Of a DNA stretch of 35,492 nucleotides, positions 2,678 through 7,039 are shown in pieces. The stretch lies in the IMG/VR virus record IMGVR_UViG_3300017923_000006, positions 1-35,492 of that record. One strand, given 5' to 3'. The notes beneath the pieces are model-generated. The model saw nothing but the letters and a program-made list of their open reading frames with translations, ran no database searches and was not told where the DNA came from. This stretch comes from a virus. The position numbers and the translations under genes were made by a program. How positions within the stretch are numbered: the stretch's first letter is position 1; each line of letters opens with the position of its first letter.

Positions 2678-2700
2678 CCCTGCCTGCTCACAGGCCAGGG
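2678..2700 (-). other. Hairpin downstream of the adhesin variable region
   Basis: The arms CCCT-GCCTG and CAGGC-(C)-AGGG enclose a four-base loop (CTCA on the plus strand, TGAG on the minus). It lies about 80 bases after the adhesin stop codon. In phage DGRs a hairpin or cruciform with a four-base loop just downstream of the variable region helps retrohoming, so the position is suggestive. It could also simply be an mRNA structure. No T-run follows, so it is not a standard terminator. Confidence 0.45.
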
Positions 2701-2779: not shown

Positions 2780-4324
2780 TTAAGCAGCCGCGCGCGCCCC
2801 GATACTCGAATACGAAGTGCCCGAATAGTTACTCGCAGTCAGATACGCGAGCCCCGCTCGAGCGCTACTCGCCAGATCCCCGCCCGAAGGAAGCACCCGC
2901 CAGCCGCCGGCGGCATTATAATGATAATCAGTTATATATGACCCAGACCCAGCTCCATTTCCAATTTCTATCGGATAAAACGCTGCCAGCTGCCCCTCCA
3001 AGTGCATGTCCTTAATGTAATCATCATCGTCCTCAAAATCCAGCGACAGGCCAGTATCACGGTAATTTATTGTCGTGTCATCGGCAAAATCGCCGGGGGT
3101 GTGACACACATATACATTAATCGGATCGCCAGTTGGATTGTTTATGTTTATGCCGTCCCAAAACTTCCATACATTCCCAAATGGGTTTTCAATGCCGTAA
3201 AAGCTATTGGCAATATACCGTCCATCCGTGCTGGATGTGCTGGACTCGGTGGCAGTTGCTCCGCTGGATTCCCCCGTAATGGTCTCCCCTGACGAAAACG
3301 ACCCCTCCACGCTATCCAGGTGCAATATACCTCCTGTCGATCCCTCAATATCTACCACAACTCCGGTGGCCCCGCTTGTCCCTCCAGTCACAGTCTCGCC
3401 CAGGGTGAACAAACTTACGTCATCAGCCCCATCCACTGTCACACTGGAGATTTTCTCATCTGACCATATCGACCCACAGTAGTTACCCAGGCCCAGTGTT
3501 ACTCCGGCTGGTGTCGCAAATCCATAAGACCAATCATGACATTCAGTATGGCCAGGCAGAACAGATTGAGAATCCCACGTTTTAAACCGAGTCAAAAAGA
3601 GAACGATCGTTATTTCCAGAATTCCCCAGCCAGCTTGATAAAATACCCCGTCTGCAATCTGGGTTCGAAATTGTCCTCGCGTGCGGTTCGTGAAAGGATT
3701 TGGGGTTTCGTTTGTCAAATATGCGCTGGTGTCTTTGACAATGGACTGAGCGGCAGCATCATTTGCATCTGTGGCTGCTACGCATTCAAAGGCGGCAATG
3801 TATCTGTATGCATCATCCCTGAATTCTTTTGGCACCCAGGCCGATACTCCATTAAATGTAAACGGCTGCAGGCTGTTTAGCACATACGCATAATCGCCAA
3901 TGCGGGTTATGACAACGTAAAACCGAGGGGTTTGAACCATAACCTGTCCCGCGCTACCATCCAAAGTAGCTGCACTGCCGTCCGGCAGTTTAGAGCTGTC
4001 CCTGGCGTTGAGTTCAGTCCAGGCACCAGCACTGGTGAGCAGTCCCCGCTTCATCTCCTCTTGTATCGGGAAATTTTGGTAATCGGTTGCTACAAAGGAC
4101 CCATCGACCAATATACCTGGCTCCCAGGCAGGGTCCTCGCTGGTCGTGTCCCTGCGCACCCCGTACACCATGCTCTCGGATTCCAGCGGAGTGGGGCTGT
4201 ATTCCCTTACGTCACCAGCCGCATCCTTGGTAGCGATATTGCCGGATGCGCTTATAAAAAAGGCCGTTTTGCCTGCGCTCGGAGTGATGGCGTCGCTCTT
4301 ATTTCCTAAATTGAATTGACTCAT
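2780..4324 (-). CDS. Tail adhesin with C-type-lectin fold, probable DGR variable protein, 514 aa
   Basis: The start at 4324 has GGAGG nine bases upstream and follows the previous stop by one base; a GTG at 4345 is in frame but unsupported. From about residue 130 the sequence follows the C-type-lectin / sulfatase-modifying-factor pattern of DGR target proteins: QTPRFYVVITRIG, then YIAAFECV, RTRGQFRTQ, GIENPFGNVWKFWDGI, and a C-terminal GGWRVLPSGGDL ending SSIGARAAA. An inserted module near residues 310-370 has two copies of a GETVTGGTSGATG / GETITGESSGATA repeat. The last 42 codons behave like a variable region (see the entry at 2783-2908). As the last large tail gene it is the best candidate for receptor binding. 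No template repeat or reverse transcriptase is visible in the window. Confidence 0.85.
   Translation of the reverse strand: MSQFNLGNKSDAITPSAGKTAFFISASGNIATKDAAGDVREYSPTPLESESMVYGVRRDTTSEDPAWEPGILVDGSFVATDYQNFPIQEEMKRGLLTSAGAWTELNARDSSKLPDGSAATLDGSAGQVMVQTPRFYVVITRIGDYAYVLNSLQPFTFNGVSAWVPKEFRDDAYRYIAAFECVAATDANDAAAQSIVKDTSAYLTNETPNPFTNRTRGQFRTQIADGVFYQAGWGILEITIVLFLTRFKTWDSQSVLPGHTECHDWSYGFATPAGVTLGLGNYCGSIWSDEKISSVTVDGADDVSLFTLGETVTGGTSGATGVVVDIEGSTGGILHLDSVEGSFSSGETITGESSGATATESSTSSTDGRYIANSFYGIENPFGNVWKFWDGININNPTGDPINVYVCHTPGDFADDTTINYRDTGLSLDFEDDDDYIKDMHLEGQLAAFYPIEIGNGAGSGSYITDYHYNAAGGWRVLPSGGDLASSARAGLAYLTASNYSGTSYSSIGARAAA
2783..2908 (-). other. Candidate DGR variable region (adhesin codons 473-514)
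   Basis: About eleven codons at the exposed positions (GAT, AGT, AGC, TAT, ACT, AGT, AAC, TAT, ACT, TAT, AGT) can each be derived from AAT or AAC by changing only the adenines, while the intervening codons encode the conserved frame (GG, AG, IGAR). This is the pattern expected when an AAY-rich template repeat is copied with adenine-specific mutagenesis. The region ends at the stop codon, as is usual. Seen directly: the codons. Inferred: their origin, because no template copy is present here. Confidence 0.6.
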
Positions 4325-4325
4325 T

Positions 4326-4766
4326 TTATAAAACCTCCCATACACCGTTTACCGTTACCGTTGCTTCAATATCCAGCGGCCCCACACTTAATGCATTGTA
4401 GCCGTCTGGTATTTCTGTATCTGACGTAACCGCGTTCTTGTTCATTTGGATGCCACTTTCTTTTTGATTAAGGTTTTGATACACTTCAGCCGTATTCACT
4501 ATACTAAGCTTACTGCCTAAAGGACAAGATATGGCACTTGATCCTTCCTTTGCCCGTTCAAGGGTTACTGTATTGCTGCCTTCCTTGGCCACAATATGGA
4601 CATACTCATAGCTTGAGCCATTCCATAAGACAGCAGGGTAATAATCATCCCCATCAATGTCCTCCAGCAAATCATAGTAGCTGGACTCGATCTCTGCGCT
4701 GGTTTCTGTTTTGCCCAGATCGTTTGACAGAACAGTGTCCCAATCATTTATAAACAACATTGTCAT
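4326..4766 (-). CDS. Tail-tip/adhesin-associated protein, 146 aa
   Basis: Starts MTMLFINDWDTVL with AGGTG upstream and ends one base before the adhesin start, so the two are probably translated together. The centre has YVHIVAKEGSNTVTLERAKE followed by SAISCPLGSKLSIVNTAEVY, a beta-rich pattern typical of short phage tail-tip proteins in which a measured value is followed by a strand-turn-strand and then a coil leading to the fibre. Probably a structural adaptor or N-terminal piece of the adhesin complex. No enzyme motif. Confidence 0.7.
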   Translation of the reverse strand: MTMLFINDWDTVLSNDLGKTETSAEIESSYYDLLEDIDGDDYYPAVLWNGSSYEYVHIVAKEGSNTVTLERAKEGSSAISCPLGSKLSIVNTAEVYQNLNQKESGIQMNKNAVTSDTEIPDGYNALSVGPLDIEATVTVNGVWEVL

Positions 4767-5133: not shown

Positions 5134-5834
5134 TATAAGAACTCCTTGAGTGAGAAGTCTATTTTGTAGTTATTAAAGCTAGAAAGCAATCCTTTTGGCA
5201 GGCTTTCCATCCTAGCATAATATGTTAATTCCTCTGAGAAATTTTCGATATAAAGCAGAAATGGGTCTGGATATATGGCCTCAGCCCAGCGCATAAAGTT
5301 GAAATATTCCTCTTTTGACTCAGGCTGCATTGAAAGGCTGGGAGTTTTTGATAAATTGCGCTGAAAAATGTACTCAAACCCATTATCCAGATCGTAAACA
5401 ATGCTGTGGCTCTTTGCTCCCGTATTTGCGCCCCACCTTGGATTGGTCCAGCTATACGCCACACCGCTAAAAAATATCCCGCAAGCCACATCATCACCAG
5501 ATATATTTAGCTCTATTGTGGCGTCGTGTGTTCCTGCAACTGTGCCATAGTCAAGAAAAAACGACTTTAGTCTGTATTCGCCCCATCCATCATCTTGAAG
5601 TAAGGTAAAATTGTAATCAATTCCATCAACTGTCACTGTTACAGAATCAGCGGTCAGGTTATACATAGCCAGAGCGTTACTCCCGCCCTGCAAGGTCGCT
5701 GTAACTGTGGTGCTTGATACACCAGACTTCCAGCGTTTTTTGCTATGCTCATTAAGCATATTGCTGGCCGGAAACCCGGACTCGCTATTGGTAGCTGAGA
5801 TTGTCTCAGTTGCATTTTCCCAAATTATTTTCAT
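5133..5834 (-). CDS. Tail-tip / baseplate structural protein, 233 aa
   Basis: Starts MKIIWENATETISATNSESG with the phrase FPASNMLNEHSKKRWKSG, a discoidin-like opening found in many phage tail-tip proteins. The body is beta-rich, with a long jelly-roll-like stretch. The C-terminal third (SLSMQPESKEEYFNFMRWAE, then DPFLLYIEN) resembles the part of distal-tail proteins that packs under the tape measure exit. It overlaps the upstream gene by four bases. Probably a distal-tail-like component; no enzyme residues seen. Confidence 0.7.
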   Translation of the reverse strand: MKIIWENATETISATNSESGFPASNMLNEHSKKRWKSGVSSTTVTATLQGGSNALAMYNLTADSVTVTVDGIDYNFTLLQDDGWGEYRLKSFFLDYGTVAGTHDATIELNISGDDVACGIFFSGVAYSWTNPRWGANTGAKSHSIVYDLDNGFEYIFQRNLSKTPSLSMQPESKEEYFNFMRWAEAIYPDPFLLYIENFSEELTYYARMESLPKGLLSSFNNYKIDFSLKEFL

Positions 5835-7039
5835 ATAAAATTAACCTCACCATCACCTTTGACGGTGACCGTTTTGGCAGAGTAATCAAGTGCAAAATCC
5901 CTCACTCTCACGTAGCCTTCAACCGGATTGACTGATATTTCGTCCACAAACTCAATCTTCTCTCCATAGCGGGGTAGCCGATATAGCGGCAAATCAATCT
6001 CAATTTGTGGACGGTTGGCTCGTGATAGAATATCCTCAACACGCTCTTTTATTGTTTCCTTGTCGTAATTATAAACGGCAGGCATAGACTCTTCTACGCC
6101 GATAACTGTATAATCAGAAAAAACCTCTATGTCGTGATCCTCAGATTCAACCCGTGTACCGTCCGAATCTGTCACTGAATCTCTGGTCTGCCAATTTGCA
6201 GTATATTTTTTGATTGGCTGCGGCCAGCTATATGTAATTTTAACGGGGTCAAGCGTGTTTTCTTCGAGCCCTACCTGCTGAACTCCGTTGCTTGCATCAT
6301 TATGTACAAGATACAAAGTATTATCTAAAACATAGAATCCATGATCTACATACCAAGCCAACTTATCCAAAAAATCCAGTATGTATTGCTGACTTGATAT
6401 AACCGTGTCGATATTTACATTTCCTGCAAGCTCGCTGTTAAGCGTCAATCCAAGCTCATCGCAGGCCCAGGAAAACACATCTACCAATGTTTCCTTGTTG
6501 CCTGTCCCAGACATATACAGTGTGCCGACCAAATCCACGCTCCTGCTTACCGTTCCATCACCATTGTCTGTCCAAGAATCATTTATCAGCACTCCGTCAT
6601 CGTAACAGTCGATTCCATTGCCAATGCTGCCTACAAAGTCCGGCAGATAGTATCTCTGTTCTGATTGATCTCCTGTCCGCTGGGGCTGCATATACTCAAC
6701 ATTTCCGATAACTAGCGGCAAATCAACATTGTTCCCTTCTGTATCTGTGCCTTCCTCAAGCAACTGAGTTTCGTACTCAGGTTCAAATATATCGTATGTA
6801 AGTTCTTCGTTGGTCAGCTTTCGCAGGATAATCGTGCCATCAAATACTTTAAAAGATGCAGCATAAGTTAGCCCCCACTCCAGAGTAACAGTCGCTTTGC
6901 GGGGAGGCTCGCCAGTGTAAGTGTCAGGTGCAAAGCCGATCTGTCCCCAAGACGGCTTCATATAACCGCCCTGGTTGCTCCTGCCCATATCCAGGCTCGG
7001 CAGATCAATTACTTTTGGTTCCCACCATATTGCTGTCAT
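5831..7039 (-). CDS. Tail hub/baseplate protein, 402 aa
   Basis: A beta-rich protein without membrane segments. Residues 1-120 include a strand pattern with WGQIGFAPDTYTGEPPRKAT. The middle (VDVFSWACDELGLTL, then ILDFLDKLAWYVDHGFYVLD) looks like the hub fold of tail-associated proteins in which a helix leads into a barrel. The end (GYVRVRDFALDYSAKTVTVK) is a typical closing strand. It lies three genes downstream of the tape measure and overlaps both neighbours by a few bases. It is best read as the tail hub (gp27-like), an assignment made from position and general pattern only. Confidence 0.7.
   Translation of the reverse strand: MTAIWWEPKVIDLPSLDMGRSNQGGYMKPSWGQIGFAPDTYTGEPPRKATVTLEWGLTYAASFKVFDGTIILRKLTNEELTYDIFEPEYETQLLEEGTDTEGNNVDLPLVIGNVEYMQPQRTGDQSEQRYYLPDFVGSIGNGIDCYDDGVLINDSWTDNGDGTVSRSVDLVGTLYMSGTGNKETLVDVFSWACDELGLTLNSELAGNVNIDTVISSQQYILDFLDKLAWYVDHGFYVLDNTLYLVHNDASNGVQQVGLEENTLDPVKITYSWPQPIKKYTANWQTRDSVTDSDGTRVESEDHDIEVFSDYTVIGVEESMPAVYNYDKETIKERVEDILSRANRPQIEIDLPLYRLPRYGEKIEFVDEISVNPVEGYVRVRDFALDYSAKTVTVKGDGEVNFI

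Follow-up and report, generated by a model that had tools for sequence, protein, structure and literature searches.

A tail adhesin with a DGR variable region in a phage record that holds neither template nor reverse transcriptase

The tail adhesin and its family

The window examined here is an entire IMG/VR record (IMGVR_UViG_3300017923_000006; 35,492 nt), so that anything absent from the window is absent from the record as a whole; the record is linear and lacks repeats at its ends, and related records are as long as 44–46 kb. Its minus strand carries a gene for a tail adhesin (2780–4345) that ends in a variable region (VR; 2783–2908), followed by an interval of 132 nt (2648–2779), a gene for a 163-residue protein (2156–2647) and a small accessory gene (1806–2144). 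Beyond the accessory gene the coding strand switches, and plus-strand ORFs are found at 123–1679. Positions 1–1000 have a G+C content of 0.37–0.43, compared with about 0.50 elsewhere, and their plus-strand ORFs, which run opposite to the late operon, have no PHROG matches.

The adhesin comprises 521 residues when counted from the GTG at 4345, and the start that corresponds to its homologues is probably the ATG at 4324, judging from the relative L092, which begins MSQFNLGN. For both the ORF and the codons at its C-terminal end, the description given in the sequence-only reading is correct. Single-protein searches returned no relatives of either the adhesin or the tail protein encoded at 5831–7039, and a profile search with the C-terminal domain of the adhesin retrieved hundreds of homologues; PHROG 5302 (tail protein) also matches the adhesin, with an E value of 7e-50. 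Counting only those with a usable C-terminus, 225 homologous loci were retained, 153 of which have a template whose differences from the VR are confined almost entirely to adenines (usually with 0–1 other mismatches in 60 nt) and 159 of which contain a reverse transcriptase (RT). The adhesins of the nearest relatives are only about 35–56% identical to that of the window. They also lack an inserted, repeat-like linker of low model confidence (GETVTGGTSGATGVV / GETITGESSGATATE), which is encoded at 3289–3430 and corresponds to residues of about 305–353.

A C-type-lectin layout had been proposed for the adhesin, and its structural model bears this out. The model matches TaqVP (5vf4), the variable protein of a diversity-generating retroelement (DGR) of Thermus aquaticus, with a Z score of 22.0 over 260 residues and an r.m.s.d. 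of 3.3, and the sequence profile of the adhesin finds the same protein with an E value of 4e-7. The match to Mtd of BPP-1 is weaker (Z score of 9.0).

The variable region and its codon signature

The VR comprises about 42 codons and aligns with the templates (TRs) of two intact relatives, L342 (IMG/VR 3300036943_000718; aligned over 2783–2881) and L278 (IMG/VR 3300027580_000051, which is also the record of L090; aligned over 2783–2874). Its 3′ end (2780–2803, minus strand; ATCGGGGCGCGCGCGGCTGCTTAA) is rich in G+C and putatively IMH-like, and carries CGC where the nearest templates show CAC. Comparison of 102 distinct templates from homologues sharing the spacing of the window revealed ten codon columns with AAY in no fewer than 87% of them. 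These span 2804–2878 on the minus strand (residues 490, 492, 493, 496, 503, 505, 506, 510, 512 and 514) and come close to the earlier estimate of about eleven AAY-reachable codons among the last 42. In the window the ten columns read GAT, GCG, AGT, CGA, ACT, AGT, AAC, ACT, TAT and AGT, with the expected pyrimidine as the third base in eight of the ten; the remaining two, GCG and CGA, fit the ACG and CAA of the nearest templates. Read through the templates of its relatives, the VR fits adenine-only change from AAY template codons.

The distribution of differences points the same way. The VR retains the third base at nine of the ten AAY codons of L342 and at all seven of L278, and it differs from these two templates at 53–59% of the adenine positions but at only 15–35% of the other bases. 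When six relatives were compared, third-base identity was 0.88–1.00 at eight variable codons versus 0.30–0.34 outside the VR, while the first and second bases behaved in the opposite way, being the variable ones at these eight codons. Such an inversion is the product of copying from an AAY template, and is not a pattern that ordinary selection gives; it also shows that templating acted in this lineage well after silent sites had become saturated relative to the relatives compared. The proposal that the adhesin ends in a DGR-like variable region is confirmed by its membership of a template-bearing family, by the third-base inversion and by the TaqVP-like model, and its identification as a DGR target, which rests on the templates of its relatives, is strongly supported.

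A hairpin with a four-base loop had also been pointed out downstream of the VR. The fold is real and stable (2678–2700, minus strand; −10.4 kcal/mol and z −3.9 for 2668–2712), with a bulged stem and a TGAG loop, and lies about 80 nt from the VR. Published phage DGR hairpins have a stem of 7–10 bp and a GRNA loop, and are located 4–34 bp from the VR (PMC3240598). The hairpin was therefore rejected as evidence of a DGR on account of its loop and distance, and no counterpart was found behind the VRs of close intact relatives. Since these relatives are also without an obvious hairpin, the lack of one matching the DGR consensus is not decisive.

The missing core and the neighbouring genes

Neither RVT_1 nor the RT protein of the nearest relative detects an RT in the record, an adenine-tolerant scan of both strands for a template finds the VR alone, and the templates of relatives match nothing in the record except the VR. 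The earlier statement that the window contains no template or RT therefore stands, as a statement about the record only. A permissive search for RT fragments gave chance matches, which were discarded.

Comparison with intact relatives shows where the core would be expected. The gene order is adhesin, TR, RT, accessory gene and 163-residue protein gene in L090/L278 and L342, and adhesin, TR, RT, 163-residue protein gene and accessory gene in L279 (IMG/VR 3300029267_001809); that of the window is the order of L279 minus TR and RT. The RTs of these relatives carry YCDD and GNYLSQ motifs, the latter fitting the DGR-type GxxxSQ (PMC11054128). The interval is about 1.4 kb in L279 and 132 nt in the window, where no remnant of TR or RT is recognisable. 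Identity between the adhesin and those of its nearest relatives is too limited for a deletion scar to be located with single-base precision. A core further along the same operon would be unexpected, since the coding strand changes after the accessory gene. Relatives identified through the terminase were set aside as a guide to the ancestral locus, as they lack both the adhesin and the RT; none of 43 such records contains an RT.

The two small genes that remain are both found close to DGR cores elsewhere. Orthologues of the 163-residue protein lie beside the core in L090 and L342 (46–48% identity) and in L279 (34%), and no match to it was found among annotated phage records. The accessory gene, with a GTG start assigned by homology, has homologues at 35 adhesin loci out of the 225. 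All but one of these loci (34) include an RT as well (Fisher p = 3e-5), in most cases no more than 600 nt away. Within the annotated phage records the gene is found in ANMV-1 and vir525 alone, in both cases directly after the RT, and the ANMV-1 RT that precedes it is part of a published DGR (PMC4372165; KP703175). Homologues are located at L090:11774-12067, L342:5244-5543 and, in ANMV-1, L355:3983-4279. No Pfam, PHROG or NCBIfam match was obtained. The predicted structure (pLDDT 82) resembles PriB, SSB and a RuvB-like OB domain with a middling best Z score of 7.4, and the product may tentatively be regarded as an OB-fold protein of the nucleic-acid-binding type. In the window, the body of the gene is conserved (62–64% to L342) and the core residues of the family are kept, but the conserved C-terminal YYT(F/L) motif is altered and the stop is displaced, extending the ORF by 14 residues (1806–1850), which may be a mild sign of decay.

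Other members of the adhesin family are also without an adjacent core. In L097, a record of 38,130 nt that has no RT, the VR is followed 15 nt on by only the last codons of the accessory gene (L097:10390-10471), whereas in its relatives L101 and L093 this interval is occupied by the TR, the RT and a complete accessory gene; L097 is thus a second case of core excision in this family in which the VR was kept. About a dozen further homologues with ample flanks display the codon signature with no RT or TR nearby, indicating that it is not rare for a target to be orphaned or remote. L103, L116, L122, L126, L149, L162, L217 and L320 have adhesins with an NNY signature and no RT or TR within their flanks, and may be remote or orphan DGR targets. 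L345, an RT locus of a MAG, contains no template for the orphan adhesins L264, L251 and L271 of the same MAG. At L089:10569-11057, immediately behind a DGR-type adhesin and at the place expected for the TR, lies an ORF similar to an HNH homing endonuclease; the contig ends there.

Loss of the core, its alternatives and known systems

The adhesin is a DGR target that was probably orphaned by the loss of its DGR core. Its ancestor would have carried the adhesin, TR and RT, followed by the 163-residue protein gene and the accessory gene. In copying the TR RNA the RT would have made errors at its adenines, and the resulting cDNA would have taken the place of the 3′-terminal part of the adhesin gene, resetting about ten ligand-facing residues of the C-type-lectin domain at the tail tip. 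TR and RT would then have been lost from the cassette, leaving behind the adhesin with its IMH-like VR end and the two small genes. The adhesin would thereafter have been fixed at its last variant, altering only by ordinary mutation, by recombination or by retrohoming from another element. A target that was active until recently and then lost its core is the best reading of the locus, and we infer that the genome as a whole has truly lost TR and RT, which would leave the VR frozen. Three observations favour core loss: the syntenic place is closed, a gene linked to DGRs was left behind and a parallel case exists. On the other hand, the largely conserved body of the accessory gene implies that decay has been slight, and recent DGR action would be equally well explained by a remote DGR or by one acting in trans.

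The first of these, an intact core in a part of the same phage genome that was not assembled, with the adhesin VR as a remote target that it continues to diversify, is unlikely but deserves consideration. Without end repeats the record may be a fragment, and several missing kilobases could hold TR and RT; furthermore, the frozen third bases of the VR speak for recent templating, and remote VRs have been described in phages (PMC12629997). However, where the homologous loci have an RT it is usually within a few kilobases of the VR, the syntenic place is closed in the window and the terminase-related records are devoid of RT. In addition, the missing part would probably be flanked by the replication genes on one side and the leftmost plus-strand genes on the other, where a core would be unusual.

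Diversification in trans, whether by a DGR of the host or of a second prophage, as put forward in the sequence-only reading, or by that of a co-infecting phage, is rather improbable. It would be in keeping with the retention of the target side (the VR and its IMH-like end) and of the accessory gene, as well as with the recent templating shown by the frozen third bases, and BPP-1 reconstitution works with donor and target on separate plasmids (PMC12875486). Nevertheless, exact patterns of the window's own codons found no donor template in viral_contigs, a search that may leave out the records closest to the window. A template-translation pattern search of the same collection matched only L090 and L342, and these are not the donor, since their templates differ from the VR at many non-adenine sites. 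Thus, of the original interpretation, the DGR target is well founded, while action in trans was not demonstrated and the simpler loss of the core fits.

An assembly artefact, in which the contig skips TR and RT or joins two genomes near 2650–2780, has little probability. VR/TR repeats do break assemblies, and indeed the VR is where L092 and L276 stop, either at it or within it, and L091 starts inside the adhesin. Yet the join preserves the adjacency of the 163-residue protein gene and the accessory gene seen in L279, and a collapse between VR and TR would leave the RT downstream instead of removing it. Finally, although the record lacks TR and RT and some homologues likewise have no RT nearby, an ordinary C-type-lectin adhesin that was never a DGR target and acquired its codon pattern by chance can practically be dismissed, given that the inversion falls at exactly the codons that are AAY in the templates of relatives and that the accessory gene is linked to DGR RTs.

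Loss of the core, the preferred explanation, makes this locus an example of what remains after a phage drops its hypermutation machine. Surveys anchored on the RT miss DGR targets that have no RT nearby, a limitation stated in PMC8144416, and where a target family is known, frozen third bases alongside variable first and second bases at set columns provide an RT-free route to their detection. The case also points to a small and uncurated accessory family, OB-like according to its model, that neighbours DGR RTs in archaeal viruses as well as phages and is a candidate alternative to Avd. Were action in trans to prove true, the adhesin would represent a satellite-like use of the mutagenesis machine of another element.

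The closest known systems are L342, L090/L278 and L279, which share with the window a homologous adhesin with the VR in the same place and the adjacency of the accessory and 163-residue protein genes, but have TR and RT between the adhesin and the small genes instead of 132 nt. The DGR of the archaeal virus ANMV-1 (Paul et al., 2015; PMC4372165; KP703175) likewise has a C-type-lectin, tail-associated target and a homologue of the accessory gene (43%) immediately 3′ of the RT, in a cassette that is complete, unlike that of the window. Mtd of BPP-1 and TaqVP resemble the adhesin of the window in their C-type-lectin fold of the FGE subtype with the VR at the C-terminus, but belong to complete DGRs with Avd, whereas RT and TR are both missing from the window. 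The Epsilon crAss-like phages are a different phage group, and the accessible text of PMC11054128 on them does not include the accessory gene of the window; as described there, RT fragmentation or deletion has occurred in some members, in which a receptor-binding protein with a TaqVP-like fold and its VR have been kept, as in the window.
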